A stretch of DNA of 64,000 nt from Rhabditoides inermis (taxonomy: Eukaryota > Nematoda > Chromadorea > Rhabditida > Rhabditidae). The translations under genes and the position numbers were made by a program. Under the pieces are notes generated by a model. The model worked only from the letters and a program-made list of their open reading frames with translations. It did no database searches and had not been told where the DNA came from. The stretch covers positions 17,501 to 81,500 of the forward strand of contig CAWZYM010000142.1 in the NCBI GenBank assembly GCA_963966185.1. Reading direction: 5' to 3'. Of the stretch, positions 30,277 through 52,700 are shown piece by piece. Position 1 is the first letter of the stretch; each line of letters starts with the position of its first letter.

Positions 30277-30350
30277 GAGCTCGAGAGGAATCGAACCTCC
30301 ATCGGAAGCCTCAATCAGAGGCTGACTAAGCAAACCAGCACGAACCCGAG
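30277..30350 (-). repeat. tRNA-derived SINE head, copy 12
   Basis: Second head of the unit-3 pair. Confidence 0.75.
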
Positions 30351-30385
30351 AAATGGCCAACACCCGGCACACACAATAACCCACA

Positions 30386-31640: not shown

Positions 31641-31929
31641 TTCCCTCTCTCTCTCTCTCTGTTGCTATATTTCCCTCTCTCTCTCTCTCTCTGTTGCTAT
31701 TTGGAGACACTCAGAAAATTTCGCTATGACGTCATTTGTTGTTGAAGTTTTCGTTGTTGAATTTTCCGAATTGTTGAATTTCCCCAGTTGTTGAATTGTT
31801 GAATTTTACAGAATGCCCGATAAAAAAGCTAAAAGATTGGTCTTAAACCATACGTAAATACCGACATATCACAGGAAGTAGTTCATTTGTTAATAAAACC
31901 AGCTCTTTTGAGAATTGAAACAAAATTTA
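31641..31929. other. Spacer, no gene seen
   Basis: CT-rich run, then AT-rich DNA with GTTGTTGAA repeats. It forms the 3' flank of the polyubiquitin remnant. Confidence 0.4.
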
Positions 31930-34044
31930 TCATACAAGTGGGTGAGAATGATACAGGAGATAGTAGTAGTTGCCTTCACGAAGGCGGAACATCAAGTGCA
32001 GGGTCGACTCCTGGATGGTGTAGTCGGACAGGATGAGGCCGTCCTCGAGCTGCTTTCCTGCAAGTACACGGGTAAGAGAAGTAGACGAAAAAAATAGTAA
32101 CAATAAACGTACCGGTGAAGATGAGACGCTGCTGATCAGGGGAAACTCCCTCCTTGTCCTGGATCTTCGCCTTGACGTTCTCGATGGTGTCAGAAGCCTT
32201 CACCTCGAGGATGATGGTCTTTCCAGTGAGGGTCTTGACGAAGATCTACATACCTCCACGGAAACAGAGGACAAGGTGGAGAGTGGACTCCTTCTGGATG
32301 TTGTAGTCAGAGAGGGTGCGGCCATCCTCGAGCTGCTTTCCTGCAAGTACACGGGTAAGAGAAGTAGACTAGACGGAATAAACAAACAAATAGTAACAAT
32401 ACACGTACCTGCGAGAGGAGAATTTCTCTCCCTGTCCTGGATCTTCGCCTTGACGTTCTCGATGGTGTCAGAAGCCTCCACCTCGAGGATGATGGTCTTT
32501 CCAGTGAGGGTCTTGACGAAGATCTGCATACCTCCACGGAAACGGAGGACAAGGTGGAGAGTGGGCTCCTTCTGGATGTTGTAGTCAGAGAGGGTGCGGC
32601 CATCCTCGAGCTGCTTTCCTGCAAGTACACGGGTAAGAGAAGTAAACGAAAAAAAAACAAATAGTAACAATAAACGTACCGGCGAAGATGAGACGCTGCT
32701 GATCAGGGGAAACTCTCTCCTTGTCCTGGATCTTCGCCTTGACGTTCTCGATGGTGTCAGAAGCCTTCACCTCGAGGATGATGTTCCTTCCAGTAAGGGT
32801 CTTGACGAAGATCTGCATACCTCCACGGAAACAGAGGACAAGGTGGAGAGTGGACTCCTTCTGGACGTTGTAGTCAGAGAGGGTGCGGCCATCCTCGAGC
32901 TGCTTTCCTGCAAGTACACGGGTAAGAGAAGTAGACGGAAAAAAACAAACAAATAGTAACAATAAACGTACCGGCGAAGATGAGACGCTGCTGATCAGGG
33001 GAAACTCCCTCCTTGTCCTGGATCTTCGCCTTGACGTTCTCGATGGTGTCAGAAGCCTTCACCTCGAGGATGATGTTCCTTCCAGTAAGGGTCTTGACGA
33101 AGATCTGCATACCTCCACGGAAACAGAGGACAAGGTGGAGAGTGGACTCCTTCTGGACGTTGTAGTCAGAGAGGGTGCGGCCATCCTCGAGCTGCTTTCC
33201 TGCAAGTACACGGGTAAGAGAAGTAGACGGAAAAAAACAAACAAATAGTAACAATAAACGTACCGGCGAAGATGAGACGCTGCTGATCAGGGGAAACTCC
33301 CTCCTTGTCCTGGATCTTCGCCTTGACGTTCTCGATGGTGTCAGAAGCCTTCACCTCGAGGATGATGGTCTTTCCAGTAAGGGTCTTGACGAAGATCTGC
33401 ATACCTCCACGGAAACAGAGGACAAGGTGGAGAGTGGACTCCTTCTGGATGTTGTAGTCAGAGAGGGTGCGGCCATCCTCGAGCTGCTTTCCTGCAAGTA
33501 CACGGGTAAGAGAAGTAGACTAGACGGAATAAACAAACAAATAGTAACAATACACGTACCTGCGAGAGGAGAATTTCTCTCCCTGTCCTGGATCTTCGCC
33601 TTGACGTTCTCGATGGTGTCAGAAGCCTCCACCTCGAGGATGATGGTCTTTCCAGTGAGGGTCTTGACGAAGATCTGCATACCTCCACGGAAACAGAGGA
33701 CAAGGAGAGTGGACTCCTTCTGGATGTTGTAGTCAGAGAGGGTGCGGCCATCCTCGAGCTGCTGTCCTGCAAGTACACGGGTAAGAGAAGTAGACTAGAC
33801 GGAATAAACAAACAAATAGTAACAATACACGTACCTGCGAGAGGAGAATTTCTCTCCCTGTCCTGGATCTTCGCCTTGACGTTCTCGATGGTGTCAGAAG
33901 CCTCCACCTCGAGGATGATGGTCTTTCCAGTGAGGGTCTTGACGAAGATCTGCATACCTCCACGGAAACAGAAGACAAGGTGGAGAGTGGACTCCTTCTG
34001 GATGTTGTAGTCAGAGAGGGTGCGGCCATCCTCGAGCTGCTTTC
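31930..34044 (-). pseudogene. Polyubiquitin pseudogene with an intron in every repeat
   Basis: Ubiquitin is a 76-residue modifier that eukaryotes also encode as head-to-tail polyproteins. Seven repeats begin at 33955, 33680, 33402, 33110, 32818, 32529 and 32251, preceded by a half repeat that starts at an intron acceptor (34044). Each repeat is cut by a 65-75 bp intron at the glycine before [13 protein letters not shown]. Damage: the 5' half-repeat and promoter side are missing. The last repeat has TAG for Gln2. Three repeats (33955, 33680, 32529) lack six codons in the PDQQRLIF segment. Most tails read LVLCFRGG or similar instead of LVLRLRGG, and the last ends REG with 14 extra codons and a stop at 31930. 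Ubiquitin is almost invariant, so this is a pseudogene. The 275-292 bp periodicity shows the repeats multiplied together with their introns. Confidence 0.92.
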
Positions 34045-34549
34045 CTGCAAGTACACGTGTAAGAGAAGTAGACGGAATAAACAAACAAACAAATACAAAC
34101 AAAGTCGTACATAAAAAACCATAATTTCACAATGACGGATATTGATCATCGCTATGTACATTTTTAGAAAAAAAGTATGAAAATGAAAACCATATGAAAA
34201 AAACGAAAATGAAAACAACATGAAAACAACAACAACACAGCGAAACAAAATCTGGCCTAAATTTTGAATTCAAATTCATGTCTAATGGTAGTAACCTGCG
34301 AAATTCGTTTGAACGGACCACTAAAATCTATATTTTTCATATTTTGAGATTTATTCAAAAAAGTTTTATTGCATCGAAAAGGAATGTATATGTTGTATAC
34401 TATAAAATTGCACATATTTTTTGCTATCATTCTACTCCAAAATGAATCGTTCCTATTCGGTGCATCTCGAAATCGTTCTCGAGGGTCAAAAAACAGAATA
34501 TTCGAAGCGGAATCGTCGGAGTATTTTATTCACCCTTTGAGCCCCCTAC
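34045..34549. other. Spacer, no gene seen
   Basis: AT-rich, with GAAAACAACATGAAAAC-type short repeats near 34180-34230. No supportable gene. Confidence 0.4.
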
Positions 34550-36225
34550 AGTGACATTGCCACTTCTTCTCTCATCTCATCTTACTATATAGCGAGTGTG
34601 ATAAAGACAGACAGACAGACAGAATACGCAAACCACACTTTAAGCCTTCTTCCTCTACTCGAACAACAGTGACATTGCCACTCCTTCTCTCCTCTCATCT
34701 TACTATATAGAAGAGGGTGATAAAGACAGACAGACAGAATACGCAAACCACACTTTATGCCTTCTTCCTCTACTCGAGCAACTGTGACATTGCCACTCCT
34801 TCTCTCCTCTCATCTTACTATATAGCGAGTGTGATAAAGACAGACAGACAGACAGAATACGCAAACCACACTTTAAGCCTTCTTCCTCTACTCGAACAAC
34901 AGTGACATTGCCACTCCTTCTCTCCTCTCATCTTACTATATGGCGAGTGTGAGAAAGACAGACAGACAGACAGAATACGCAAACCACACTTTATTCCTTC
35001 TTCCTCCACTCGAACAACAGTGACATTGCCACTCTTTCTTTTCTCTCATCTTACTATATCGCGAGTGTGAGACAGCCAGACAGACAGACAGAATACGCAA
35101 ACCACACTTTATGCTTTCTTCCTCTACTCGAACAACATTGACATTGCCACTCCTTCTCTCCTTTCATCTTACTATATAGCGAGTGTGAGAAAGACAGACA
35201 GACAGACAGAATACGCAAATCACACTTTATCCCTTCTTCCTCTACTCGAACAACAGTGACATTGCCACTCCTTCTCTCCTTTCATCTTACTATATAGCGA
35301 GTGTGAGAAAGACAGACAGACAGACAGAATACGCAAACCACACTTTATCCCTTCTTCCTCTACTCGAACAACAGTGACATTGCCACTCCTTCTCTCCTCT
35401 CATCTTACTATATAGCGAGTGTGAGAAAGACAGACAGACAGACAGAATACGCAAACCACACTTTATTCCTTCTTCCTCTACTCGAACAACAGTGACATTG
35501 CCACTCTTTCTTTTCTCTCATCTTACTATATCGCGAGTGTGAGACAGCCAGACAGACAGACAGAATACGCAAACCACATTTTATGCTTTCTTCCTCTACT
35601 CGAACAACAGTGACATTGCCACTCCTTCTTTTCTCGTGTGAGACAGCCAGACAGACAGAATACGCAAACCACACTTTATGCCTTCTTCCTCTACTCGAAA
35701 AACAGTGACATTGCCACTCCTTCTCTCATTTCATCTTACTATATAGCGAGTGTGAGAAAGACAGACAGACAGACAGAATACGCAAACCACACTTTATGCC
35801 TTCTTCCTCTATTCGAACAACAGTGACATTGCCACTCCTTCTCTCCTTTCATCTTACTATATAGCAAGTGTGAGACAGCCAGACAGACAGAATACGCAAA
35901 CCACACTTTATGCTTTCTTCCTCTACTCGAACAACAGTGACTTTGCCACTCCTTCTCTCCTCTCATCTTACTATATAGCGAGTGTGAGAAAGACAGACAG
36001 ACAGTGAGACAGCCAGACAGACAGAATACGCAAACCCCACTTTATCCCTTCTTTCTGCCCTCATACAACAGTGCCATGACAACTCCTTCTCTTCTCTCAT
36101 TTTCCTTGATAGCGAGTGTGAGACAGCCAGACAGACAGAATACGCAAACCCCACTTCATCCCTTCTTTCTGCCCTCATACAGCAGTGTCATTCGAACAAC
36201 ACACTTGACTATATAACTAATATCT
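34550..36225. repeat. GACA-cored satellite, array 5
   Basis: About 13 units. Its order of unit variants from roughly 34900 to 36000 closely follows that of 15900-16800, so part of array 4 and this array share a recent common origin. Confidence 0.95.
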
Positions 36226-37735
36226 CTACGTGCGTGTGCGGGCTGAATGGGGACTGAACGCATGGGCTGTACGGAGGAAGGGGCGGATCCATTGGAGGCG
36301 GGGTCAGCCAATTGCTATCGCTACATGTGTGTGCGGGGTTTTAGACCGTACAAAAGAGCTCGAGAGGAATCGAACCTCCATCGGAAGCCTCAATCAGAGG
36401 CTAACTAAGCAAACCAGCACGAACCCGAGAAATGGCCAACACCCGGCACACACAATAACCCACAGTGTGCATAAATATATTTGATTTAATCTAACAATAG
36501 GATCGCGGTCGTTCTACCATGCTGAGGCTAAACGCTAGACATTTCACATATATCCAACGTTCACTAATCACACTTTAGAATCAATAATTAATCGATACAA
36601 ACTATGCTCCTATCCTCGGCACTCATCTCATATGCTCCTATCCTAGGCTGAGCGCAGAGAGGCGGGGCTATAGGGGCGGGGTCAGCGTAGCGGTTTGCAA
36701 GAGCGGAAGGTGAGAGACGGCAGCGGACAAAGAGATACATGAGAGGGGGGTACCCATTCAAATGGTTCCACCGAAGACCGCGCACGAACGAATGAACGCG
36801 CTAACGAAAGTATAAATTTGGATGAACAGGAAAGGCTCAAAGCATCTCCTTGTTTCTTTCTCTCTCTCTCACTCCGTCTGTCCCCTCTCTGTTTCTCTCT
36901 CAACCCCGTCCCTCCTTTCGCTTTTCTAATCTCTCTGTTACTACCTCCCATTCCCTCCTCTGGCACTTGCTTGCCTTCTCTCCCTGCTGCCTTCTTCTAC
37001 GCTTGTCCGACAACCCTTACTAACGTTGAAAAGCACAACACTGAGAACACGACTAATATGTCAGCATTTGCTCTACATGATCCAAAAAACCCGAATCGTT
37101 TCGTAATTTCACATATATACAAATCAATCATCAATCAGTCAGTGAAAATCATCAATCAATCAGCGAAAACTCAATCGCTGCGGCAGTTTTTGTCGCAGCC
37201 TGGTCGCTTCGATTGGGCCAGTCCAGTTAACTGTTTTATAGATGGTCTAGAAGCTTGTTTGCGCCGGGATGCTGCATTTGCTGCGAACATATCATTTATA
37301 AAGCAAAAGAATGAAACAACGCGTCATATGAAACACGCGTCACGCGACAATATAATCGAATCCAAAAATCACGATATGCAACACGACGCGACATACGCGA
37401 TAAGACAACCATGAAAAGGCAAAACGATATCAACTAGAACTAAAGAAGAAAGTGAAAAGAATGAGGGGACACGCATGGGAATATCCCCTTTCACTTTCTC
37501 AGTTCATAGTCTTCTTCTAAAATACCGATATAGTTGCTGAAAATTCGAAATATATGTACCGTGATCACATTGCTGTACTCATCCTTGAATACAGAGTACT
37601 CCTGAAAACATTTGTCATCTATCGCTCTATCACAAATCTCTTCATCCACCCCTCTCTTTCCTTAGAAACTCCTCTCTCCTCTCTTCTTCTCGATATCCCC
37701 CCCCCCCTATCTCGTTCCCTCTCTCTCTCTCTCTC
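36226..37735. repeat. Dispersed copy of the macro-repeat with one SINE head
   Basis: Begins with CTGAATGGGGACTGAACGCA, as at the ends of arrays 1 and 4, passes a SINE head (36356) and then follows the macro-unit from 36466, including the 198-codon frame (36818-37414). A few substitutions and a missing 6 bp near 36750 distinguish it. It ends in the CT-rich tract beside the phosphatase gene. Confidence 0.9.
36356..36429 (-). repeat. tRNA-derived SINE head, copy 13
   Basis: Has GGCTAACTAAGC as in copies 1 and 3, but the CGAGAGG T-arm variant of the macro-array copies, so it is intermediate between the two groups. Confidence 0.75.
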
Positions 37736-37966: not shown

Positions 37967-38840
37967 CGTTGATGTCCTTCTGGGAGATAATGCCGATCGC
38001 GATCGCGTGTTCGACGACGCCCGCAAGGCCGAACACATACTGCTCCGGAGTCTGCACGGCCTGCAGACGCATGCCTGCAACCTCACCTCTCACATCTACC
38101 TCCTCCCCCTCTCTCTCCCCTCTGTCGTCTCATCCCTCTCTCCCTCCCCCTTCTCCCCTCCTCTGTCTCCCCCCCCCCCACCCACCTCGCAGCTGACGGA
38201 CTACGTCCATGCGGCAGTCGGCGTTCCCCTTGCTGATCTGCTCCATCCACAGCTCCATCGCCACCAGCGTACCCGTGCGACCAATACCTGAAATTGACAT
38301 TCGACTACCGATGCAGACACAGACACTCTTACCCGCCGAGCAGTGCACGACAGTGGGGTACTTGCTCGAGCGAGCCTTCTCGAGCAGTCTGAACGGCGCG
38401 AGCATGCTAGTCGGCACTCCGTGATCCCGCCTCAAGTGTCTTGTTGTCTCTTTCTCCCTTCCTCCCTCTTTCCCTCTCCCTCCCTCCCTCTCTCCTTCTC
38501 TCTGCCTCTCGTACCATCCAGTCCATTGGTAGTGGCGGACAACGCACGTCTTCTTCGAGGCGCGGTCCGAGTACTCCAGCTTGGACAGCACCAGGTCCCT
38601 ATCCTTCGTGACCACGCTCGCCGTCACCACGGTGATGGCTGAAAGAGACAGTAGAATAGGAGAAGGAGATGGATAAGACAAATCAGCGGGTGGCCGATCA
38701 GTTCAATCAAGTGGATCGGTGAAGACGGTAATAAGGAGGATGAAAGGATCACTGATCTCACTTCCGAACACGAGCTTGTCGCCCACTTTCTGCGGCCAGT
38801 AGCGCTCGCACTTCTTCTTGCCGTCTTCATCCAACCCACA
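37967..38840 (-). pseudogene. Protein tyrosine phosphatase, 3' exons (gene split by the retrovirus)
   Basis: Classical PTP catalytic domain, C-terminal part. Exons: rest of the interrupted exon 38840-38762 (KKKCERYWPQK), 38638-38515 (ITVVTASVVTKDRD, HYQWTGW), 38430-38333, 38287-38186 and from 38074 into the repeat tract. The signature loop HCSAGIGRTGT, with catalytic Cys and Arg, is intact across an intron (38332-38288) that splits a glycine codon. QTPEQYVF gives the conserved glutamine. The WPD-loop exon reads TGW-RDHGVP if the GAG acceptor at 38431-38433 is used, so the loop proline would be arginine. The first five bases (38836-38840) are the target-site duplication shared with 56177-56181. 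The C-terminal exon runs into low-complexity sequence with no convincing end. Cytosolic, non-receptor type as far as visible. Confidence 0.9.
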
Positions 38841-39170
38841 TGTCAAGACTAAGCTATGGGGCAGGGTTCAGTCTAAGGTACTCTACAGTAAGGGTACTAA
38901 TAACTACAGTAATGGTAATAGTAACTACGGTAATCTACAGTGATAACAATACAATACATCAGACCTGTCTCCATGGCCGTCGAGAGGGTTGCCACAATAC
39001 TCTCGCCAATAAATACATAACAGTAATATAGAAGTGACTTTATCGCATATAGTAAATATACATGAAAGGGCGACCGCTCACGCGGATCGTCCCGGCGATA
39101 AGTGTCGATCTCTCTCACTTCTCTCTTACGTGTCTGTGCTCTCTCTCACTCTCTCGTTCCGGTCGGGACA
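38841..39170 (-). repeat. 3' LTR of the BEL/Pao retrovirus
   Basis: In sense orientation it begins TGTCCCGACCGG and ends GTCTTGACA, the usual TG...CA. On reading I find no difference from the right-hand LTR. Confidence 0.97.
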
Positions 39171-39240
39171 TTCCGGGGGGGACGCGAGAACATCTCGAGT
39201 GTAATGAGTGATGTGACACGGGGGGGAGATAATCGATACT

Positions 39241-39287
39241 TATAAATTTATAAAGTGACAATTGCCCTGTTTTTTGGGCTTCTCAGT
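39241..39287 (+). promoter_or_regulatory. Possible promoter for the antisense accessory genes
   Basis: TATAAATTTATAAAG at 39241-39255 is a strong palindromic TATA element, and an initiator-like TCAGT lies about 34 nt further (39283-39287). It points towards the three plus-strand genes. The TATA match is seen; its use is inferred. Confidence 0.4.
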
Positions 39288-39722
39288 CTACGTTCGGTAG
39301 TGGGTCTCCTCCTGTCGCTTGTTGAAGACGTGTTGTCGTTGACGTGTTGTTTTGTCGTTGACGATGAAGGCTTCTTCTGACGGCTGGTAGGTATAGTCGC
39401 GTCTGGTGTGAAGTGACGGTAGAGTGAGTGCGCGCTGCCGATTACGTTACTGTTTTTTCTTCTTCCGAGAACCTCTTTTAAGTTCTCCTTTTTTGTTTTT
39501 AGAGTGACGCCAATTGATTACGATCATTGTTTACATCTTTTGTATCAGATCGTGTGTGGCGTGGCGGTTCGGATGCCCTTTGCAATCCCTTTGAATCCGC
39601 CACATGTGCCTTCACAGGACATGGCTTGGACACTCCTCATACATTGTATCCAACTCGGCTGGCGAGGGCGGCTGGTTTCGTTTTCCTTGTTTTCTAGAAA
39701 CTCTGCCTATTTGCCCGTTCAG

Positions 39723-40253
39723 ATGCGTTCTCTTGTCCTTCTCCTTCTTGCTCTGCTTGGCGTCGCTGGTGTGTACGTCTCGCGCTCGCCGTCGGCTTGC
39801 GGGGAGTGGCAAGTGTCGGCCTCGTGCCCGAGGTGTCCCTCGGGGCACTTGTGCATCGTCCGTCTTTCCGAGTGAGTTGTTTATCTGCTATCCAATGTGT
39901 ATTGCGCAAGGAGAGAGGGTGGAATCTGTTGTTCCAGACTTTGGATCGTGCACTGTCTTCCGATGAGCGTGCTATCGTCTCATGCTACCGATCGTCGCCG
40001 TCAGCAGCCCGTGCCTCCTACGACTACTTCGGCGGTGCCCCTTTCATCCGCTTCCCCTTCTCGCTCTCGCGAGTGTGTTGAGTGTGACGCGGCTTCTATT
40101 GATCTCGGCCATATTGTACTTGTCATTGTCGCCATTATCTCCACCTTTGCTGTCGCTTACCTTCTGTATCGTCAGGGGGCGGGTAGGCGTGAGTATGCTC
40201 CTCCTGCGGCTGCTCAGATGCGCCTTGTGTCTCTGCGCGCCCTGTCGTCTTAA
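39723..40253 (+). CDS. Accessory gene A: single-pass membrane protein, antisense to gag-pol
   Basis: Exon 1 is 39723-39871 and exon 2 is 39938-40253; the intron has GTGAGT...TTCCAG and phase 2, and joining gives a 154-residue product. It starts with a textbook signal peptide (MRSLVLLLLALLGVAG), followed by a short ectodomain with several cysteines (CGEW, CPRCPSGHLC), a Ser/Thr/Pro-rich stalk, CVECD, a 20-residue membrane span (HIVLVIVAIISTFAVAYLLY) and a basic tail. The ATG directly follows an acceptor-like GTTCAG. The frame is open upstream to 39504, so an earlier ATG at 39573 is possible. A type I membrane protein in a retroelement, apart from Env, is unusual. Function unknown; I recognise no family. 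Confidence 0.65.
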
Positions 40254-40475
40254 TCCGCTGCCTAGGCCATACTCTTTCTCCGATTGTCGCGTCCAATTGC
40301 TCATGATATAATCTTGCGTTTCTCGATCCACACATGCTACCTCATCCTTGTTTATTTCAATTGCTTGTCCCGATAAATTATGATAAGCAATGACCTTGAT
40401 TGGAGGCGGGTGAGTGCGCCTATCTGCACATCTCTATTACTTGATGAGTGAGAGCTTCACTCTCTAGAAGTTTCG

Positions 40476-41173
40476 ATGTATGTGCTGGTGAAAGGAGATT
40501 ATATTGTCACTGGGGTTTTGGGATGGATCCAGCTATTCCTTCCGACTCGCGTCCCTCGTCGATGCGGCCTTATATTCATTGCCGATCCGCCGCGCGTCAG
40601 GTATACTGTAGCTGATCCGTTTGATTGTATTACAATCATTTAGTCGCACTCCGCTCGCTCTGATCGATCTCGCTCTCATTCAACTTGTGGATTCTTTTGT
40701 TTTCTCCCTTGTTGGTTTGAATGGGCTGACTTCGCTTCGCGCACGCCCCTTTGAGATATCGGATGCGCCGGCGTCTGACCAGAGTCTCTTTTGGCGCCCG
40801 GTGGCCAATCATTGCCGTGGGGTGCGGCGTGGCCTCGCTCTGCTGCGTACTCACGTGCGGCAGTTTGCGGGGATAGCGGCTGTCATCGAAAAGGTGGATA
40901 TCAATTACAAAATTTTAATCCTCTTTGTAATCGCCTTTCTTTCCGGTTGTCGCCCTACCTCATCATGTGCATCCGGCTGAGCGGTCGACTCGTTTTCATT
41001 TTGTCCCTCTTGATTGGGAGTCCCCTTCCCTGCTTCCCAGTATTCGCGTCCTTGAACGCCGTGTTCACCTCCTGGCTATCGGGAGCTTATATCTGACCCC
41101 CAGTGAGCTAGCCTCGGAGTTGGAGGCGGCGTCTGCTTATGCTAATGTAGTGTACGCCTTTCCTCGCTCGTGA
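40476..41173 (+). CDS. Accessory gene B: unidentified spliced protein with a non-AG acceptor
   Basis: Exon 1 is 40476-40600 and exon 2 starts at 40644, with intron GTATAC...TTTAG; the frame joins cleanly across it. If exon 2 is read through it stops at 40980 (153 residues) after a hydrophobic end. If a second intron runs from GTGGAT at 40894 to TTTCTTTCCG at 40945, the frame instead continues through a coding-like block to 41173 (200 residues) ending AYANVVYAFPRS. That acceptor would end CG rather than AG. The first exon includes hydrophobic segments (YIVTGVLGWIQLFL); the middle is basic and helical. No family recognised. It lies 222 bp after gene A and 57 bp before gene C, all in the same direction. 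Confidence 0.5.
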
Positions 41174-41230
41174 ATCGCATTGATAGCGCATTTTTTGTAG
41201 ATAAATTGATTTTTGTTTTGTTTAGTTGCC

Positions 41231-42034
41231 ATGAGTCAGCTGCGCGCTCGCAAGTCGGACCGTCGTACGGAATTGAGTGCGAGGGTCGCTGACCGTTCTG
41301 TCTTTCTTTCTGACCGCGCTCGCGTCACTGTTCAGCTACAGAGTGCTCTCGACGATGCGCGTTCGTCTTGTAGTGCTCTTCACGAGCTTTGGGAAGAGTT
41401 AGTTGGACAGGCGGCTACTCTCTCTGATCAAGATCTGTCTGCTCGCGATACGGTAAGTGGCGTCTGTCACCTTCTCCCGTCATACAGTATTACAGTATGC
41501 TCGCGACGCTTTTGCCATACTCGAGGGCCTGTTCAACATGGAAGATGTGAGTGCTATTCTCGTGGCTAGTACTTTTTCACGCCTCCCTTTTAGTCCGCCC
41601 GTGATATCGCGCGCGGTCTCAAAGGGCTCTCCGCGCTGGCTACGCTGCACTTGAAGTCCCTCCGCCGGCTGGACCAGTCGGATGACGATTTTTGGTCTGA
41701 GCATAGGTTGATCGTGGATAGGCTGGAGGAAGTGAATGTGAAATCCCATGCGTTCTCTGCACGCTGCGCAGCTGCTCGTGAATCTGCGCGTTCCTCTCTT
41801 CACCTTGCTCCTGCCATCACCCTCTTCCGTCGCCGTCGCCATTTTGTGAGTGACGCTCATTTTGCCGCTGGGCAGCGCGATGCCCCTGGCGCCTCCCGCG
41901 CTCGCGCGTCCTCTCAGTCTACTCGCCTGCGTCTCTCTATTCCCCCTACTCTCTCTGTGACCTCGGCCTCATCCTCTCCCAACGCCCCTTCCGATAACAC
42001 TATGATCGATCTTCTCCGTTCATTCACAAACTAA
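41231..42034 (+). CDS. Accessory gene C: 237-residue helical protein, antisense to gag-pol
   Basis: Three exons, 41231-41452, 41496-41546 and 41594-42034. Introns of 43 and 47 bp (GTAAGT...TTACAG, GTGAGT...TTTTAG) are both between codons. The ATG lies five bases after TTGTTTAG, a likely trans-splice acceptor. The product is mostly amphipathic helix (SVFLSDRARVTVQLQSALDD, FWSEHRLIVDRLEEVNVK), with a basic patch FRRRRHF and a Ser/Thr/Pro-rich tail. No transmembrane segment or known motif. The clean three-exon structure with both joins in phase is strong evidence that it is a real gene. Its end converges on gene E on the other strand. Confidence 0.75.
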
Positions 42035-42316
42035 TAACCTTTATTGCTCGCATTTTTTATAACACATTCAACATTGCCTTCACTTGTTCATTTTATCTGT
42101 GCGATATGAATATAATTGTGCTTGCTTCGTGTTGTGGTGTTATTTGGTGGCGATTGGTGTGTTATTGAGTCGCCGTCGATATATAAGTGGTGGGTGCATG
42201 TTGGTCGGTGGGGTAGCTGGAGTGAGGTAGGATGGGATGAGGCTGGCGGTAGACTGGCTGGCGAGGAGGTGCGGAGGGAGACTGTGGCGGGCGCGACTGG
42301 CATCTGGAGAGGGCTA

Positions 42317-42664
42317 TCAGCGAGTCGGCGTCTCGAGAAGGTCGGCCTCAATCTGGCTGACCCTCTCCTCCAACGCCTTTTTTTCCCTCTCCAGGATCTC
42401 CTTGTCGTGCTGCGCACGCTCTACTGCATCCCGCATGGCCTTGAGCGCCTGCTCGGCCTTTTTGGCCTGCAGCTTGCGCACGCGTTCTTCCAACTCTTGT
42501 TGTCGTTGGAGAGCGGACAGCTTCTCCTATAATTTGTCTATTATTTCTCTCCCAATCGTCGACTTTCGCGCTCTCTTTCTCATTCTCACCTTGAGCTCAG
42601 TTGCTTCTTCCTCGTTGTTCTTGTCCTCGGTCGTGTCCTCCTCATCGTCCCGTTTTCCCGTCAT
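42317..42664 (-). CDS. Accessory gene E: 94-residue coiled-coil protein
   Basis: Exon 1 is 42664-42590 (25 codons, very acidic: DDEEDTTEDKNNEEE). Exon 2 is 42526-42317. The 63-bp intron (GTGAGA...TTATAG) is between codons. Exon 2 is an almost continuous heptad coil (LEERVRKLQAKKAEQ, EILEREKKALEERV) ending LLETPTR. The ATG lies six bases after the acceptor-like AATTTAG, so the exon could also be reached by cis-splicing from gene D just upstream. Sense with gag-pol. Function unknown; an oligomerising partner of the zinc-knuckle protein is one guess. Confidence 0.7.
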
Positions 42665-42687
42665 CAAGAACTAAATTGAGGGTTATC

Positions 42688-43238
42688 CTATGCCCTCCCT
42701 CTCTCTCTCTCTTTCTGGCTCTCTCTTTTTCCTTCACTTATTTCGATCTGGAGAATCCTTTCCTCCACCAGGCGGTTGAACTCCTCCTCGCCGACTCCAT
42801 CCTCCAGGAGGGGGCATACCCTGCCCCAATGGTGACCGCCAGTGGCCATGCACCGCTTGTTCCTGCAACGTCCTTCTTGGACGGTTTTTTCCGCGCGATT
42901 GTGACACGCCCAGGGCTGATGTGCAGGCTCCATGCACAGCAAACAGAAGTCGGAGACGACGGCATACTCCTGGAGCCTTGGCGTCGGCATGACTGATAGT
43001 CTCTTGCAGGAAATTGCCACATGCCTGTTTTTCCTGCATACGGCGCAGTGGGGTCTTAGCTGCTGGGCTGTCGCGGGGGCTGCAATTCATTTCTTCTCGA
43101 TTGCTCGACGCTGCCTATTTTACCGTTTCGCCGTCCTCCTTCCACATCCCTTGTCGGGGGGTAGTCGGGTGCTGTGTTACGGGCGCGGTTTCTCGGGTAG
43201 GCACCGTCGTTGCGATGGCTGTGCTTGTGGCTGGACAT
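42688..43238 (-). CDS. Accessory gene D: triple zinc-knuckle (nucleocapsid-like) protein
   Basis: Exon 1 is 43238-43124 (histidine- and arginine-rich start, SSHKHSHRND). The 44-bp intron (GTAAAATAG...AATTGCAG) splits a codon, and exon 2 begins at 43079. Exon 2 encodes CAVCRKNRHVAISC and CLLCMEPAHQPWAC, both exact C-x2-C-x4-H-x4-C knuckles, then a third, CRNKRCMATGGHHWGRVC, of the variant type found as the last knuckle of many BEL/Pao Gag proteins. A helical end follows (EEEFNRLVEERILQIEI). The frame stops at 42688, but a good donor (A-GTGAAG) just before that suggests another splice I could not resolve. The main Gag has no knuckles, so this may be its detached nucleocapsid. Nucleic-acid binding is inferred from the motif. 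Confidence 0.75.
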
Positions 43239-43375
43239 AGTCGATTGGGATCAGTTACGGTCCTGCAATGCGCGATTTATCTCTCGCAACCTTTGGTAAT
43301 GACGTAATACGATATCGCGTTTGATCGGTTAGTCGCGTTTGTTATGGTTAGCTTATACCGCGAGTCGTATAGATG

Positions 43376-43412
<37 letters not shown>

Positions 43413-43790
43413 CAATGACCCCTTATTGGGTCTGGGAGAGATGGTCGGGGGAGATGCCCGGGGCAGGTGCCTCCGGCGCGGCGTCTTTGGGAATGAATGC
43501 CGTTGGGGGTGGGCGGGAAGATACGCTGCGCGTGCGTCCTTCTCCTGTCATCCATCATTCATTATGGCTCCGCGCGTTATCTTATCCTCTTTCGTTTTCT
43601 CTTTTTGGTTATGAGATCAAGGTTATTAACCGTATTACTGGTATGGTTTACCGTATTCTCTAGGTTACCCGCCCTCCCATGCTCACTGGCAAATTGAACC
43701 CGTATCAATGACTATGGAATTGTATAGACAGTTTATACATATTATACACATTATATACATTATATACAATTTGTACACCACATTCGATAA
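43239..43790. other. Spacer between env and gene D
   Basis: Holds a GA microsatellite (43378-43408) and, at 43725-43775, an AT-rich run of ATTATATACA-like repeats just after the env stop. Possible polyadenylation or promoter region; nothing firmer can be said. Confidence 0.4.
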
Positions 43791-46700
43791 CTAGTAGGTT
43801 TCATTTGGGTTTGGGTGGGCGATTCCTGTTGGCAGCATCGCGAATTGTACTTGTGGCTGCTGCCTGTTGAGGCATTGCATGCAGTTTAGCTGCCATATTG
43901 TGGGCGAGAATAGCACGATGAGGAAGATAATTATTGCTATTGCGAGGATAATCGGTAGCCACTCGTCCATCGCTCTCAGAAACCTGATAGTCTTTTCGAC
44001 TGTTTCGCACAGCTGGTCCCATATCCCGATAGTTTCTGGAGCGATGTACGTTGTGCCCTTGGCTGTGTTTGCCATTGGTATGCTGCCCTCAATGTAGTCT
44101 AGCTCACCGGTTGTTGCGATTGCGATCGATTTCCCTCCGCAATGCACAGTACACGACTCTTTGACCTCGCGCTCTTCGAAATAGCGTCTGATCTTAGTCA
44201 CGTGACCGGTTTTGTCACATTGAATTGTGTCTACAAAATTGTCCGTACATTGTATCTGGGCGGCTCCCGGTACTTCCGAATGACATCTTAGTTTGAATTT
44301 TGCCCCTTTGAGGCAGTTGAAGCATCCGGTTATGGGGGACACGTCACTCACCCGGCAGGGAGTGTCGTATTGGGAATATGACAGGTTTAGTCGTTCTTGG
44401 ATGTTGAATTGAATGTGCAGCGCGTCGCGTGTTGTAATCAATTGCGGCTTCACTTGCGACGTTACCTTCAATTCAAACCCTTCGCCTATGGTTGGCAACA
44501 TGTTGTTTGGATCACGGAGGAGCGAGTAGTAGTCGGTATCTGGGCATCGGCATAAAGCATTGTCGTCTGCGAAATCGCACCTGCATCGATCTATAAACGT
44601 GCAGTGAGTTGCGTTAGAGCATCGCAGAACTGGATCCGCTTCTTCTTGTCGGATGTGTGCGATTTCTTTGTTTATGCGCAGAAATTTGTCTAGTTTAACT
44701 CGTGGTGAGTCGAAGTGAATCAATTTCATTGTCGATCCGTTGTATACCTTTTTGTTTATACTCGTGGCCATGCTATCGACAAGCTTCACTGTCTCAATCG
44801 TCTTTTCTCCGTGGGGTGGGACCGTTGTTACTTCTAGTGAAACTTCAGGCACCCAATAGTTGCACTCGATAATTTCCACTAAATCGTATGTCGTTGGCTT
44901 AGCGTATACTCTGTAGTATAGGCAGCTGCTTGACAGTGTGAGACACTTGCACAGGAGGAATCCGCATTTGTTTGTACAGTATGTTGCCCCGCTGTACTTG
45001 TTCGCTTCGCTAAACTCGCTAATGATTGTGTCCTGATCGATGTCGTTGCATTTGCCTCCGGTACACAATCCGCTCCCCGCACATCTTCTAATCGACTCAG
45101 TTTTTGTCGTTATGTTTCTGGTGTACAGAGTGCGAGAGGCTCCACAGGTCCATGTCACGTCTTTCAAGCGAATCATCGTCTTTTGCATTTTCTTACCGGG
45201 GTATTCAATGTTTATGCACACTGTTCGATCGATACTCGTAAAGAACATGTTGATTGACGTTTGGGTTGAGCATGAGTCCCGTGAGCACGTTATGGCCTCG
45301 GTCGTAATTGGGGTCGTCTTATCGCATGTCTCGGCGGTACATGCTGTGATAAAGCTTACTGCTATCGCGATCTGGGTGAGGGTCGAGAGTGACATGGACA
45401 GTGGGCGTTTAGAGTACCTCACTGATCGGTCGCTTCGTATGATGCACGTTGGTTGCTGCACGTTGAATGGGATTGGGGTGTATCTGCTGATTCCGCTCAT
45501 GTCGTCTGACTCTCTCCTTTCAACGTCAACCTGCGTCTCTTCTACCCTCTCGTCTAGCATGTTTTCGGTTGTTTCCTCTTCTTCGGCTGGTCGGGGAATG
45601 TCCTTTTTCTTCCTCCGCACGCAGCACGCAGCGGTTCTTGCGCAACATCCAGCAGATCGTCTGCACATTGTCCTATCCCTCCATGCCTTCTTTATGCGTT
45701 GCCTGCAGCGAATCAGTAGCGCCAGAAGCGTACCGGGGATTATTGTGATGAGCGCGAGGAACAGTATCGCCTTCTTTTTGTGGCAGTGAGGGTTGACTAG
45801 GGTTTGGTACATGCATATGGTACAGTGGTTTACGCTGCATAGGTCGATTCCTGGACATGTGTGCTTGATTACCTCGTTTCTTTTGCCGTTGTATTTTCTC
45901 CAAGTCACCAAGAAAGGGTGCACAATGACGTGTGCGTCCACAGGGATAGTTATTCCTTCTAACTCATCGATTGCTGCGCGCACTTCATCATTGCAAGCCT
46001 TCTCGTCCTCGTCTATGCAAACCCTGTATTTTGTGTATTCATCGGTCTTTGCGTGATCGAATAGTTGTACGCCCTCATCTGTGCACTGTATTGATCCCGA
46101 GTATGCTGGTTCGATAATCAGGAAGTGCTCTTGTGGGTGGATCACGGATCCATTCTCGTAATGATTTCCGATATAGACGCGCGTGCTTTCATTTTTTCCC
46201 GTGGATGCCTCTAACTTATCTTCGTTTGTTTCAGTCATGCCGTCCATTTCGGGTTCGGAGTCGTCATCTGCTCCGGAGAACAGCCGCTTCATCTCCTCGT
46301 CCACATAGGTGGGTTCTTCATACTCTAACTCGATTTCTTGTTGCTCGGCGAGATCTTCTATCTCCTCTCGCGTCATTTCACTTAGCTCGAGCTTTTCTTC
46401 GCTGTTCAATTCATGTGACTGAGTTAGCTTCTCCACCACGCTACCGATGGTGATGTTCAACACTTCGTTTGTTATCATTCCCATCGCTTCCTGCCCTGCC
46501 GTTTTTATAGTCGATGAAACTGCGCTTTTCAGGGATTCGCTCGCTGCCTGCTTGGCCATCTTCCTGAGTTTCTGGATCTTCGTCTCCTTTTCCGGTGAGA
46601 CCGTAGTCTGTGCCTGTTCATTATTTGTTGGTTTTTTCACTGTTCCCTTCTTCCTACCTCGGCTACGTGCTCTCGAGCGTCCAGGCCCCATGGGTGCTCG

Positions 46701-49700
46701 TGCCCTCGGTTGCCGTTTCATGCTACTAATCTCACGCTCTGCCTTTTTCAGCCCCTCCCGTATCGCGGTTGCGATGCGTTCGTCCGTGATCAGCGCCGGC
46801 CTCGCTGTCACCTTCCCCGATCTGCCTGCGCTCTGCGTCGTCGTCCTCGCTGACGCCTGGGATTTCCAGGTTCGCCCTTTGGATAGAGTCGTTGCAGATG
46901 TGGTTATTTTGGCTTTTGTCGTTGGGCTTGGGGTTGTTACACTCGTGTACTTACGGGTAGTCTCTGTCAGTGTTGTAGACTTGATCGTAGTAGACGTTTT
47001 CCGAGTGTATGGCTTTGTGGTAGTCGGTGCCGTTGTAGGTGTACTGGTAGGGATAGTCTTGGAAGTGGGGTTGGGAGGTCGTATGTAGGGTAAGTGGATT
47101 CCATCCAGCTTCGCCATTTGCACAATTCCTTCCACTGTCCTCAGGTCGTTGTTGGCGACAGCGATTGCGTACTGTTCCACGACTAACTCTGAGTATTCCC
47201 TCACTTCTGCGTTCTGTGTGTGCGCTGCCGCTCCGGATAGCAGGATCAGCATGATGCAGAACGTGAACCGGTTTGGTGCCCTTCTGTTTCTGCCCGCTCT
47301 CGATACCGAGGGTGCTGCCTTTTTGGCTGGCTCTTCCTCCTGGTCCTGAACTTGCCCTTTCGTTGCCGGTTGCTTGGTCTTCTTAGGCTCAACGTGTGGT
47401 GAGTCTATCGCCTTTTGCACAGGGTCCTCGTCCTTTTTCTGTATCTCAAGGGGGATCAGAAGGTTGATCGGTCGTGTCGTCTCGGTCACTCGACCCGTCT
47501 CGCTGCACATTGTCAATCTAACTGCGCGTACCAGTTGGTCCTTGCTCGGGATGAGCTCGGTGACTCTTCCGAGGCGCCATCGATTCCGCGGCAGCATCCG
47601 GTCCATGATGAGCACTACTTCTCCAACTTCTGGAAGCGGTTGCTTATTGTATACCTTCCTATATTTAGGGACTTCGTTGTATGTGCGATCCGATGTCATG
47701 TAGTGGTCGCGGAAGTATCTCCAGAAGCGATCTACCGCTTTTTCCAAGTTGTTGAAGCTTTCGACGATTGCTTGATGGCGCGGTTGGGGCGCCTCGAGCG
47801 GGTCGTATTCGGCAGTGGGGATGTTTGGCATTGTGAGATCGATCGGTCGCAAGACGAATAGGTTAGAGTCGTCAATTGTCTCGCTGTACTGGATGATGGG
47901 TCTGGAGTTGACGATGCGTGAGCATTGTTGCATCATCGTTTCCAGTTGCACTCTGTCTGGTGTTATTCCCTTCATTGCCGCATACAGGCTTGCCTTCCCC
48001 AGAGCCACCATTCTTTCCCATGCTCCGGCACTCCACGGTGCCATACTGATCACTCGGTGCCATTTGACATTTCTCCTTCCCAGTTCTCCGTCGAGGTATG
48101 CTGTTGGGCTTCTCGATCCCGCCTTGCCTGCCGTCAACTTCTCGGCGAGCACGAACGTGCTTCCGTTGTCTGAGAACAGTCGAAGTGGCAAAGTGTATCT
48201 CGCCGCTAGCCTCGCCAGGCTGTAGAGGAATTGATCAGTATCCATTGAGTAAATAGGTTCCATGTGAATGAGTCGAGACGATAGGCATGTGAACAGCACG
48301 ATGTATGCCTTCTCTTTCACTTGCGACGTCTCGTTCAAATAGTACACGGGCCCTGCGAAATCCACCCCGCATGCCTCGAATGGAAATGCTCTCATAGTTC
48401 TCACTTCTGGCAGTGCGGGTCTCGTTTGCATGGGGAATGGTCTTGCCTTTGCCTTTTGGCACTGTACACACTTCCGCAGTAGTGGCTTCATCGATGCTCG
48501 AAGTTTTGGAGTGAAGTAGCGGGAGTTGTACTCGGCGACGGTTGATGCGAATCCGGCGTGGAACATTTGCTGGTGTATATCGTCAACCAGTGCTTCGAAC
48601 AGTCTTGTTTTTTGGATGATGACTGGTCTTCTGAAACAGTGCTCCGAGTCCTTGATCCGTGAATACTGATAGTATATTCCGTCTTCGTCCAGCCTCACAT
48701 CCACCCGCGATCTCATTTCGAGTATTGCTGCGATGTGTGCTTGCTGGTGAATCCTGATGAGTACGTTTTTGCCGGCCGCTCTTCCCTCGACGCTCCCCTC
48801 GAACTTGGTGTAGATTTCGGGGATCTTTAGCCTTCTCCTTTCGGTGATTGGCTTGGCGATGAGTGCGAGGAATTGAATGACGTATGCAGCGGCTGCAATC
48901 ATCTTGTTGAGTACATTTGTGGCGGGTTGTGTAACCATTCTGAAGGAGTTGAGCGCCTGTGTTGCCGCTGGAATAGTTTCCTTCTTCCTTGCTGCGTGCA
49001 TCATGATGGGGTGCTTCATTGTCTCCTCCGTTACCTTCTCCTCTGTCGGATCGTCGTCGATTGGGAAGGCAATGTGCACTTCTGGCCATTCTCGTTCTTC
49101 CTTTTTGAGGAAGTCCGGTCCCTTTCTCCAGTTGCTCTCTGCGAACTCTTCGTGGGTGAGGACACGTGTCAGGTGGTCGGCGGGGTTTTGGTCCGTGCTG
49201 ACGAACCTCATGTCCGATTGCACTCCCTTTTCCTTCAGGTCCCTCAGGGTTTGATTTACTGACTTGACCCTGTTCTCCACGAACACTTCGTTCTTCTCGC
49301 GCGGTCCGTGCTGTATCCATTGAAGAGCGATCTCCGAGTCACTCATGATGCAGACGCGGACGATCTTGAGGGTTGTGTGGGAGAGAATGAAGCTGGCTAG
49401 CTTAGTTCCGACGACGATCCCGCATAGTTCCAGGTGGGGAATCGTGTTCTTTCCCTTCTCTGGCGCGAGCTTTTGCTTTGCCATCAGCATGTTGACAGCG
49501 AAGTCTCCGCTCTTTTTCTTTGATGGAGAGCGTAGGTATGCGACTGCTCCGTAGCAGTCTTTGCTGGCATCTGTGAACACCACGAGTTCGTGTGTGCTGC
49601 TGAACTTCACGTCTTCGAGCTGTCTCGGAACTGTCATGTCCGTTTCCTCGATCAATCGAATGGTGGCATCTACGACTTCCTTGTCATTGGGGTCGTAGTG

Positions 49701-52700
49701 TTTTGTGTCCCAGTCCAGTTGGTTGACTACCCAGAACTTCTTGAGCAATAGTTTCGATCCCACTGTGACTGGTGCGTACAATCCGAGGGGGTCGAACGTG
49801 CTGCCGATGACGCTGGACACGACTCGTTTCGTAGTGTAGTCGAGGTACAGGAACTTCTTCAAATCGGGCTTGCGAACTGAGTATGTATCTGCGTTCACAT
49901 CCCAGATCATTCCCAGCACCTTGGACATCCTCCCCTTCGCCAGATCCTCCTCCGGTAGCTTTTCGTATATTCCGGTTTCATTGGATGCGTACACCCTGAT
50001 ACACATTCCCATCGCCGCGAACAGCTCCTTCGACTTTTTGTACCATTCGTAGGATTCTTTGCGCGATCCGAAGGTCATGAAGAGGTTATCCACATAGAGA
50101 TTGAACTCGATGTTGTCCTTGAGGGCCTGGTCGTGGCAGTTGTGGCTCACAAAAAATTTTATCGCCTCGGCGAGGAGGTAGCCTGAAGCGTTCACTCCGA
50201 AGGGAAGTCTGGTGAATGCGAGGATCTGTATGTCCTCTCTGTTCAAGGGCTTGCTGATGTCCGTTCCGGGCTTGATGAATATCACCCTGGTCAGGTCCTG
50301 ACTCTTCTGGTTGATCAGGACTGTGTGAAACGCCGACTTTACGTCTGCTTGCATGAGGTAGGGTGCTTCCCTTGTTCTCAAGAGTATTCCGCACAAGTCC
50401 GGGAGAGTCGTCTCTCCAGCATAGACGAGGTCGTTCAGGCTGGGCTCTCCCCTTTTGTGGGAGCTACCGTTGAAGACCACTCGCGCTGGCGTAGTGTCCG
50501 ACTTGTCGTTCCAGACCACGTGGTAGGGGAGGTACATGAACACTCCGTCCCTGTCCACGTCTACTGGCTCCAAGATTCCTTTAGTTATCAAATCTTGGAA
50601 TTGTGTCTGGATCAGCTGGAATAGTCCTGGCTTCTTTTTGTTGCATGTGTTGATGAGGTGGAGGAACTGTTGCATTGCAACGTCATAGTTATCATGGAAC
50701 GGCTCTTTTGCTCTGGGTTTGAGTGGCCATTCTACCATCACTTGCCCGGTCTCGGTGATGGCGACCGTGTCGAGGAAGTGCTGTCGCACCCTCTTCTTGA
50801 TCTCGATGTCATCGATGTCCTCGAGACCCACGTTTACCACTCTCCACATGAGTTCGTTGTCCTCCTTTGTCGTTCTCATCTTGTTCATTTTCCACACCGT
50901 CATCTTGGCCTTTCCGCAGATGGTGTCTCCGAGGCTTGATTGGAGCAGCACCTTTCTGCTTGGTAGGGTTGTGGGCTGCAGGTTGCCGAATGTCGAGTAG
51001 CATTGGTCAATTCCCATTATCAGCTCCACTCTCCTAGTACCGCCGATGATCTTCGCTCCTGCATCCCTTACCGCCTTCTCGTCTTCTTGTCTAATCTGTG
51101 GTCTCGGCTCATCGAATGCCAGGTTTTCGCACACCATCACGTCTGCTGTCACCTTGACCTTGTTGTGGTACATAGTTAGACGAACGTAGTGGGTATCGAT
51201 GGTGTGTGTCTCGCCGTTCCACATTTGAAACTCGGCTTTTCTCTTTCCCGAGATGATCGGTAAGTTCAATTGTCTTGCGACTTCAGCGTCGATGCAGGAT
51301 TTTTGTGCGCCTGTGTCCACCATGATATCCATCTGTTGCAGAGCGTTGTTCCGGTGGTTTTTGACGTTCGGCGAGAAGATCATCAAGTCGCCGGCCTTCT
51401 CTCTGGCGTCGGTCTTGGCCATTCTTTGGTGGAAGGGTCGCGGGATTGTTGGGGATTGGGATCTGGAAGGTGAGTGGGAGAATTGCACCTGTTGTTTTTT
51501 ATTGTTGCCGTTTCCCTTCTTCTTGCCCTTGAATTCTTTTTTATTCTGGAATCCCTTGCCTCCTGACCCATTCTGCTGGTTGCCTTTGGCACCATTGTTT
51601 CCTTGGTTTTTCTGCCCACCTTGACTCTGGTTTCCGCCCCCTTTGCTTTGCTGTTGGGGGTTTTTCTTTTCATAGTTGTTGCTACTCTTGGCGTTCTGGT
51701 TCTGTCCGTTTTGGTTTCTTTGTTGGGATTGTCCTCTTCGGAACTTCCCTTTCTTTTGAAATCCACCATTGCCTCCGGATTGTCCACCATTACCTTGGTT
51801 TTGCTGATTGCCATTTTGACCGTTCCCCCCACCTTTTTTCCCATTTTGGTATGGTTTCTTCGACTGCGAGCGGCCCTTGTGGCCCCCCTTCTCCTTTGCC
51901 ATCATCTGTCTGCCTCTGGTAAAGGTCTCGAAGTTCTTCTCGGTGTCTTCGTATTCGGTCACGATTCTTTCTAGCTCTTTGAGGAATTTCTTGACGTTTC
52001 CGTCTGCTCTTACCTCAGCTGCCATCAGCTTTCCCCAGAATCTTTTCGGAAACCTTCTTGTTATCTCGGTTGTGAGATCGTTCCCACGGACCCTTGTGAG
52101 TTCCATGAGCTGCACCATGATCGCTTTGATCGTGTTGTATGTCGCTTTCACTGAGGCGTAGTGATCGCTGGCGGGCTGGGTGGCCCTGAACTCGTCCCAG
52201 AGGGATTTGATCAATTTTGTCTCGCTCCCGTACGCTCTCTTCAAGGCTGTCATGGCTGGCTTGTAATTCTCCGCGCTCATTCCGAAGTGGTTGATCACTC
52301 CAGCCGCCTCTCTCTTGCAACACTGCTTGAGCTTCGTGAGTTTCACTATATCGCTTTGGCCCTCCATCAGTGCCGTGAAGGTCTGGTAGAACAGTTTCCA
52401 CTGCTTGACCGACCCATCAAACTCAGGCATGTCGATGATGTTGGATAGAGCCATGGTAGTGAAAATTCGGGGGTCGATCGATCGGTTTCGCCTCTCTCGG
52501 GACTTGGCTCTCCTCCTCTCCCTCTTTTCTTTCTTTTTCTCCCTCTTCTTGTTTTTTGCCTTCCTCCTTCCCTTATTCTTTTCAGATGCCGACTGGCTCG
52601 TCGTCGAGGAGGTCGAGGTCGATGTGGTTGATGAGGAGGAGGACGAGTCGGATGAGGAGTCGGAGTCCGAGGATTCGTCGGATGAAGTGGAGGAGGACGA

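Follow-up and report, generated by a model that had tools for sequence, protein, structure and literature searches.

In retroviruses and LTR elements, capsid and nucleocapsid are taken to be parts of a single Gag chain. Foamy viruses have G/R-rich segments in Gag instead of zinc knuckles, and we know of no separate knuckle gene in them. The retrovirus HTLV-1 has an antisense protein-coding gene, HBZ, transcribed from the 3' LTR side. Belpaoviridae are described as having genomes of 4.2–10 kb with one to three genes, LTRs of 0.2–1.2 kb, an 18-nt primer site complementary to tRNA-Arg or tRNA-Gly, a nucleocapsid domain within Gag, a Pao-type pol in the order protease, reverse transcriptase, integrase, and a polypurine tract preceding the 3' LTR (PMC8742986).

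Here we describe a BEL/Pao provirus of the nematode Rhabditoides inermis, lying in a 64,000-nt stretch of DNA (the window; assembly GCA_963966185.1, contig CAWZYM010000142.1, positions 17,501–81,500, forward strand), whose gene arrangement we found listed nowhere in the literature searched. By the available text on Atlas virus (9.2 kb, a single polyprotein of 2828 residues), the provirus shares with it and with nematode belpaoviruses a BEL/Pao pol, one gag-pol-env frame, a phlebovirus-type glycoprotein and a nematode host, but differs in its 17.3-kb length, its four more genes and its gag-pol-env without a knuckle; the words accessory, antisense and zinc are absent from the main text of that paper (PMC9094657). 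The plant Ty3/Gypsy elements Grande, RIRE2 and Retand have antisense ORFs, typically TRP28, between pol and the 3' LTR, which, as the available text has it, are conserved in most copies and of unknown function, as here, whereas the window element is an animal BEL/Pao in which several genes have multiple exons and one is of nucleocapsid type; neither text uses the word intron, and both name HBZ (PMC7264820, PMC11963269). The window element has the Retand-type aORF-3R feature, in that its copies retain an antisense gene in the interval from pol to the 3' LTR, but a Pfam scan of A–E up to E 1 found no TRP28 (PF04195). HBZ is, by description, likewise antisense and protein-coding but is a single gene. 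Cer1, also an LTR element of a nematode, is described as making an accessory protein, CERV, from spliced mRNA, with a possible zinc finger and coiled coil, but its Gag retains a predicted zinc-finger nucleocapsid; the available text mentions no antisense genes for Cer1, nor the word antisense (PMC10309623). LTR elements of bdelloid rotifers, also invertebrate, carry varied extra genes behind pol, but these are captured ORF3 enzymes or env-like genes, and in the available text the word intron is absent and antisense occurs once (PMC5408684).

Structure of the provirus

The provirus occupies 38841–56176 on the minus strand (17,336 bp) and is bounded by identical 330-bp LTRs (TG..CA) and a 5-bp target duplication, CCACA, at 56177–56181 and 38836–38840. 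Domain and CCHC searches of its gag-pol-env frame were made on pieces of the frame.

55847–56176, minus strand: 5' LTR, 330 bp, identical to the 3' LTR
55829–55846, minus strand: probable primer-binding site, starting TGG, immediately after the 5' LTR
43791–54470, minus strand: gag-pol-env, single frame, 3559 codons stop to stop
52092–52421, minus strand: DUF1759 (BEL capsid region), Pfam 2.8e-16
51339–52091, minus strand: DUF1759–protease interval, G/Q/N/K-rich at its end, no CCHC knuckle
51141–51338, minus strand: aspartic protease, Pfam 3.9e-08
49335–50384, minus strand: reverse transcriptase (RVT_1) and Pao Peptidase_A17, Pfam 2.8e-07 and 9.9e-41
47451–48602, minus strand: integrase zinc-binding domain (Integrase_H2C2) and DUF5641, Pfam 2.8e-08 and 5.8e-13
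44421–45326, minus strand: phlebovirus G2-type fusion glycoprotein domain (env), Pfam Phlebovirus_G2 5.1e-55
38841–39170, minus strand: 3' LTR, 330 bp

Pol fits Belpaoviridae (Peptidase_A17, RVT_1 and Integrase_H2C2 by Pfam), and a G2-type glycoprotein ends the frame as in nematode belpaoviruses with a phlebovirus-like Env, which bears out the earlier note's reading of a BEL/Pao retroelement with env. LTR length lies within the family range. The element is filed as BEL/Pao by its pol, yet departs from the family description: its 17,336 bp and four further genes exceed it, the 3' LTR lacks an upstream polypurine tract (the adjoining sequence is CGCGTCCCCCCCGGAA), and no CCHC zinc knuckle was found in any searched piece of the gag-pol-env frame.

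A two-strand module conserved in a diverged sister

The additional genes lie between env and the 3' LTR. They were compared with those of a sister element, L049, which has 63–71% DNA identity to the window element and keeps A, B, C and D+E, although its own gag is interrupted and its DUF1759 segment missing.

42317–43238, minus strand: gene DE, sense, exons 43238–43124, 43079–about 42741, 42670–42590 and 42526–42317
42040–42045, minus strand: AATAAA behind DE, kept in L049
41231–42034, plus strand: gene C, antisense, 237 aa, exons 41231–41452, 41496–41546 and 41594–42034
40476–41173, plus strand: gene B, antisense, 188 aa, exons 40476–40600, 40644–40893 and 40982–41173
39723–40253, plus strand: gene A, antisense, 154 aa, exons 39723–39871 and 39938–40253
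39560–39639, no strand assigned: most conserved 80 bases, non-coding by position, 96% identical to L049 within a compared region of 5.6 kb

All five antisense introns occur at the same sites in L049, four of them changed in length (window/L049: A 66/65; B 43/43 and 88/80; C 43/42 and 47/46). In the frames of the model, dN/dS between the two elements was 0.18 (A), 0.19 (B), 0.14 (C), 0.17 (D) and 0.26 (E), with 95% bootstrap upper limits of 0.28, 0.31, 0.22, 0.34 and 0.51; dS is near saturation, so that the intervals reach 0.00–0.34 for D and 0.00–0.51 for E. Reading these codons with a +1 or +2 shift gave 1.00–2.42 in 10/10 tests. Comparison thus shows the predicted genes, the spliced antisense A, B and C as well as the sense gene DE, to be conserved and protein-coding. 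Chance frames are excluded, as had been supposed from the in-phase introns, because a sister this diverged keeps both introns and frames.

The module is present at 37 places in the genome, and 14 of its loci show 13 different host flanks. Frames in the other copies, counted once per site and only where the locus covers the gene, are intact in 14/14 (A), 31/33 (B), 33/35 (C), 25/28 (D) and 23/29 (E). Together with the diverged sister, this spread rules out a host fragment private to one copy.

Exons and introns of A–E lie where the earlier note had put them, and its observation is confirmed, more strongly than first stated. Its interpretation is partly supported: the two-strand spliced module with three antisense genes is real, but D and E, counted there as two of five genes, are one.

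By eye, the product of A has a hydrophobic start, a Cys-rich part and a hydrophobic segment near its end, and is probably a small membrane protein. The second acceptor of B is ambiguous: besides the AG at 40981, a non-AG site, TTTCCG with its last base at 40945, could serve and would give 200 aa. The C product has long helices and an R/S-rich tail and is probably a coiled-coil protein; AlphaFold of its third exon (mean pLDDT 66) was confident only for long helices. B and C had looked like duplicates by eye, an idea rejected because 77/500 shuffles reached their local score. The conserved block at 39560–39639 is a candidate antisense promoter. As an RNA structure the conserved block was unconvincing (z against mononucleotide shuffles -2.1 / -2.2 for 126 bases, -1.5 / -1.6 for a wider block), and an Rfam scan of 38800–43900 up to E 5 was negative.

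Gene DE carries a zinc-knuckle array

In the window copy the D–E junction is non-canonical, as in 12/29 sites, and D (43238–43124, 43079–42688, minus strand) and E (42664–42590, 42526–42317, minus strand) had been read apart. D+E form one gene in the copies with a canonical junction and one uninterrupted frame in L049 (L049 1154–1912), from which the three sense introns are missing.

The predicted product has a triple zinc knuckle followed by a coiled coil. Against a profile of BEL Gag knuckles the array scored E 2.9e-4 (D) and 6.1e-5 (L049 DE), compared with 1.5 for the best of 1000 shuffles, and by this match it is a CCHC array homologous to BEL Gag knuckles. A Pfam scan of D found no zf-CCHC, and the best E in a PDB sequence search with DE was 0.15. 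AlphaFold of L049 DE (mean pLDDT 56) was confident only for long helices and left the knuckles unfolded, with pLDDT under 50 at residues 1–145. Neither L049 DE nor C matched the protein database at E up to 1, which says little because a control, the protease–RT piece, recovered only 4 proteins at 1e-10, none named nematode. The earlier note had overlooked that the sense gene is a stand-alone form of the Gag zinc-knuckle domain lacking in the element's gag-pol-env, and that related families carry a knuckle gene behind env, one of them antisense.

Knuckles in related families

Other BEL families of the genome keep the triple-knuckle array inside Gag; in L056 and L057 three knuckles lie between DUF1759 and the protease, where the window element has none. 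Gag lacks knuckles in L054, L055 and the family of the window element, all of which have a knuckle-coding stretch behind env. In L053, which represents a second related family, a five-exon antisense gene (dN/dS 0.15) codes for the array, whose score against the Gag profile was only 0.25. At the level searched, tblastn detected none of A, B and C in L052 or L053. In L052 a segment resembling the third knuckle lies in a shifted frame.

L061 has a downstream frame, adjoining a Gag that retains knuckles, which matched a D-type profile at E 0.011 (best of 1000 shuffles 0.15) and did not rank with the Gag profile's best matches; the frame is suggestive of a knuckle. The 4.5-kb stretch of L061 has one further full-length copy at 99% and partial ones elsewhere; its LTR was not located.

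Proposed mechanism and alternatives

The comparison is best read as a nematode env-bearing BEL lineage in which the nucleocapsid domain has left Gag for a gene of its own farther downstream. The window element is an env-bearing BEL/Pao with a four-gene accessory module, in which DE is probably the separate nucleocapsid beside antisense, spliced A, B and C. How these genes are expressed and what they do we infer from sequence. As a separate protein binding genomic RNA, DE would supply in trans the packaging and chaperone role usual for knuckles within Gag, and would be made from a spliced downstream mRNA, by cis or SL trans-splicing. A, B and C would come from an antisense transcript that begins in the interval separating the 3' LTR from gene A; splicing at an acceptor near the start codon of each gene, where an AG is frequent by chance, would then resolve it. 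The introns of these genes would not be lost in transposition because only sense RNA is reverse-transcribed.

The wider claim stands about evenly for and against: Gag would be split in an animal BEL/Pao lineage, the nucleocapsid having been copied behind env and being absent from the Gag of three or more families. Within one of these, a five-exon gene would now make it antisense, next to another antisense gene whose product would be a small membrane protein. A family retaining both knuckle copies may survive (L056/L061).

The strongest competitor, which we consider possible but rather unlikely, makes DE a Rev-like nuclear RNA-export factor built from copied Gag knuckles, with RNA packaged through the basic G/R/Q/N-rich stretch of Gag. 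Intron-containing genomic RNA needs an export route, the knuckle-like frame beside a knuckle-bearing Gag in L061 fits an added function, and CERV of C. elegans Cer1, by the available text, is translated from spliced mRNA, may contain a zinc finger and is needed to export genomic RNA (PMC10309623). The absence of knuckles from Gag in L054, L055 and the window family, together with their presence behind env, nevertheless fits replacement better than addition.

Capture of A, B and C from the host would explain their host-like introns, on the strand where introns survive, but is improbable: six-frame genome searches listed no convincing host copy, the best match to A outside these elements having E 0.0077 and an internal stop, while the matches listed for B and C all belong to these elements or to relatives of them. 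A long-ago capture from another genome is conceivable.

Nematodes have strong RNAi, which would suit an antisense block acting as an antisense or double-stranded RNA regulator with incidental reading frames. LTR-element antisense transcripts can indeed be non-coding, according to the available text (PMC7264820). We think this less probable still, since A, B and C are constrained at the protein level and their frames are kept across introns of changed length, though the block may have a regulatory role on top of coding. Chance frames or an assembly artefact, suggested by the shortness of the module genes and their lack of Pfam matches, are refuted by the comparison with L049, by the 37 places and by the different host flanks.

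Implications

Preferring DE as a separate nucleocapsid, we note that a stand-alone nucleocapsid, antisense in one family, would mean that capsid and nucleocapsid can be uncoupled, and that a core RNA-packaging protein would be encoded on the strand that is not packaged. The antisense genes show how a retroelement may keep introns that copying via spliced RNA should erase, and young, near-identical copies in a nematode genome make expression and function directly testable.

Provirus and its copies

The module under study lies in an env-bearing BEL/Pao provirus, located in the window as follows:

56176 to 38841, minus strand: provirus of 17,336 bp with two LTRs of 330 bp, 0 differences between them

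CCACA flanks the provirus on either side, and its uninterrupted gag-pol-env frame of 3559 codons, split into four pieces for domain search, encodes DUF1759, aspartic protease, RT, Pao peptidase A17, integrase zinc domain, DUF5641 and phlebovirus G2 (5.1e-55) domains. No polypurine tract was found before the 3' LTR (39171–39186), where the sense strand reads CGCGTCCCCCCCGGAA, a sequence nearly identical in L049, a diverged sister element. Beside the provirus, positions 28000–36600 hold tandem arrays with units of ~278–292 bp and 118 bp, and near-identical blocks occur nearby at ~28.4, 30.6 and 36.7 kb.

A search of the genome (172.6 Mb, 599 contigs) returned at least 37 matches to the module region at 99–100% identity, at least 30 of them spanning at least 4112 of 4130 bases. 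Host flanks differ in 13 of the 14 loci having sequence past the LTR end, the remaining one (L005) running into another element copy with an LTR common to both. At G000:C135:11319-32313, two copies apparently stand in tandem with one common LTR, the L005 flank being internal sequence. Three loci with differing flanks (L009, L010 and L011) have two internal deletions in common (window 42074–45078 and 46518–51638), which take out the segment from protease through integrase, the greater part of the G2 domain, and the sense gene DE, and retain the 3' LTR and the antisense genes A, B and C; judged by this structure, they look like a non-autonomous derivative mobilised in trans.

Conservation of the antisense genes

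The exons proposed in the earlier note for the genes between env and the 3' LTR are all present in the window sequence, and the module is not private to one copy, given the genome matches and the same genes in the sister. The decisive comparison was with L049, part of the sister element on contig C201, which is 94% identical in protein to the window over an RT segment and 63–71% identical in DNA over matching stretches of module and LTR. Amino-acid identity is 66% for A, 67% for B, 68% for C, 51% for D, 52% for E (the two parts of DE) and 81% for the env end. The frames of A, B and C are kept, with B ~40 residues shorter and C ~23 residues longer in L049, both in frame. All five antisense introns are positionally identical (window/L049 lengths 66/65, 43/43, 88/80, 43/42 and 47/46 bases), and since lengths differ by 1 base in three pairs and by 8 in one, splicing is required to keep the A–C frames in both elements.

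Nei–Gojobori dN/dS between window and L049 was 0.18 for A, 0.19 for B, 0.14 for C, 0.17 for D and 0.26 for E, with wide intervals (D 0.00–0.34, E 0.00–0.51) because dS is high (1.2–2.5). When those codons were read one or two bases out of frame, the values were 1.00–2.42 in 10/10 tests. One reverse-complement frame also gave low values (0.30–0.52), as expected from its codon ends mirroring third positions of the true frame, and for every gene it is interrupted by stops in one or both sequences. When each site is counted once and only other copies with loci spanning the gene are included, A is intact in 14/14, B in 31/33, C in 33/35, D in 25/28 and E in 23/29; frames are broken in an older relative, L050 (C342). 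Six-frame genome searches with A, B and C turned up no convincing host copy (for B and C, among the matches listed). D weakly matched four loci (E-values 0.018–0.03), of which the one examined, L051, is a Gag knuckle region. Titles and abstracts, mostly of papers free of subscription, on BEL/Pao, Belpaoviridae, antisense or accessory genes and a separate nucleocapsid yielded no description of this gene arrangement.

Gene DE and the position of the knuckles

D and E, previously read as two genes, are one: they form a single intronless frame in L049 (252 codons from the first ATG), and a canonical intron occupies the junction in 17 of 29 distinct readable sites, yielding 247 residues in 11, another length in 5 and a product broken earlier in 1. 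The window copy falls among the 12 sites with a non-canonical junction. DE encodes two C-x2-C-x4-H-x4-C knuckles and another knuckle of C-x4-C type, followed by a coiled coil, which in L049 is a long helix spanning residues 172–248.

No CCHC motif was found in any piece of the window's 3559-codon frame, where the stretch from capsid region to protease is G/Q/N/K-rich. At that place the Gag of L056 and L057, which represent different BEL families in this genome (RT identity to the window 35% and 29%), has three knuckles, and the gag-only L051 has two. L055 and L054 (45% and 42%), both with a DUF1759 region, have no knuckles between capsid region and protease and an R/G/N/Q-rich stretch instead. 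In L060, which holds the gag of the sister element itself, gag is interrupted, the DUF1759 segment is missing, and frames of at least 250 codons show no knuckle. Against a profile of these three Gag arrays (L056, L057 and L051), L049 DE had an E-value of 6.1e-5, D one of 2.9e-4 and an array in L053 one of 0.25; in 1000 shuffles of D, the best value was 1.5. The best reading is that DE would act as a nucleocapsid; as a rival reading, it could be an export factor like CERV of C. elegans Cer1 (PMC10309623).

Proposed expression

Gag-Pol-Env would be expressed by sense transcription starting in the 5' LTR, and the putative nucleocapsid DE from a downstream spliced message that an AATAAA behind DE, retained in L049, would terminate. 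Antisense transcription would begin between the 3' LTR and A; positions 39560–39639 form the best-conserved 80-base stretch of the compared 5.6 kb (96% vs L049), and a 126-base conserved block has at least 40 genome occurrences, all at 100% (from scoring 40 of 48 candidates). Copying sense RNA into DNA can eliminate introns of the sense strand but not those of the antisense strand; in L049, DE is without introns.

An acceptor-like AG lies ahead of each gene start (0 bases away for A, 8 for B, 5 for C and 24 for D), and 0–5 bases ahead of starts in L049, a placement that suits trans-splicing without proving it. At ≤1 mismatch, the genome contains 578 occurrences of the nematode leader SL1, vs 0 for the reversed control, which places the host among the nematodes. 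L051 (G000:C8:43500-48300) is a gag-only BEL-like unit with a 694-codon frame between direct repeats (1–649 and 4153–4801) that are at least 649 bp long and 99.8% identical; both repeats contain the 22-nt SL1 sequence in the same sense as gag. SL1 pairs ~4.1–4.2 kb apart likewise occur at C188, C312 and C355. The repeat is possibly an LTR containing, or derived from, the spliced leader.

Accessory genes in related families

L061 belongs to a family whose Gag retains knuckles, and a frame downstream in it shows three knuckle-like motifs, which is weak evidence; pieces of this element lie close together in opposite orientations, like palindromic insertions, at C500, C258, C87 and C193. In L055's family, the sequence behind env (L052) encodes a single CCHC knuckle in sense orientation, together with a frame-shifted segment resembling the third knuckle.

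The family of L054, which has env (phlebovirus G2 at 1.5e-52), includes L053, whose knuckle array is antisense-coded between the env end and the 3' LTR. This gene has five exons and 273 residues, with an RGG-rich start, three knuckles and a basic tail. All four introns are kept in a diverged copy, L058 (lengths 40/44, 44/46, 48/44 and 41/41), with dN/dS of 0.15 vs 1.88 and 2.25 in shifted frames. One intron (L053 3751–3794) ends in TTTTCCG, not AG, likewise in L058, and the L053 sequence from this intron's donor to the first Cys codon contains no further AG. C. elegans is able to splice without a 3' AG. A similar TTTCCG is seen in gene B intron 2 of the window (40894–40945) and of L049. Nearer the LTR, a two-exon antisense gene starting one base after ACAG encodes a small protein that contains Cys and has a hydrophobic end. 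Per 100 bases, the accessory region of L053 (2980–4580) is 45–81% identical to L058, with one block at 19%, while both flanks are 95–100% identical; the accessory cassette therefore appears to have been exchanged, as if by recombination, between otherwise near-identical elements.
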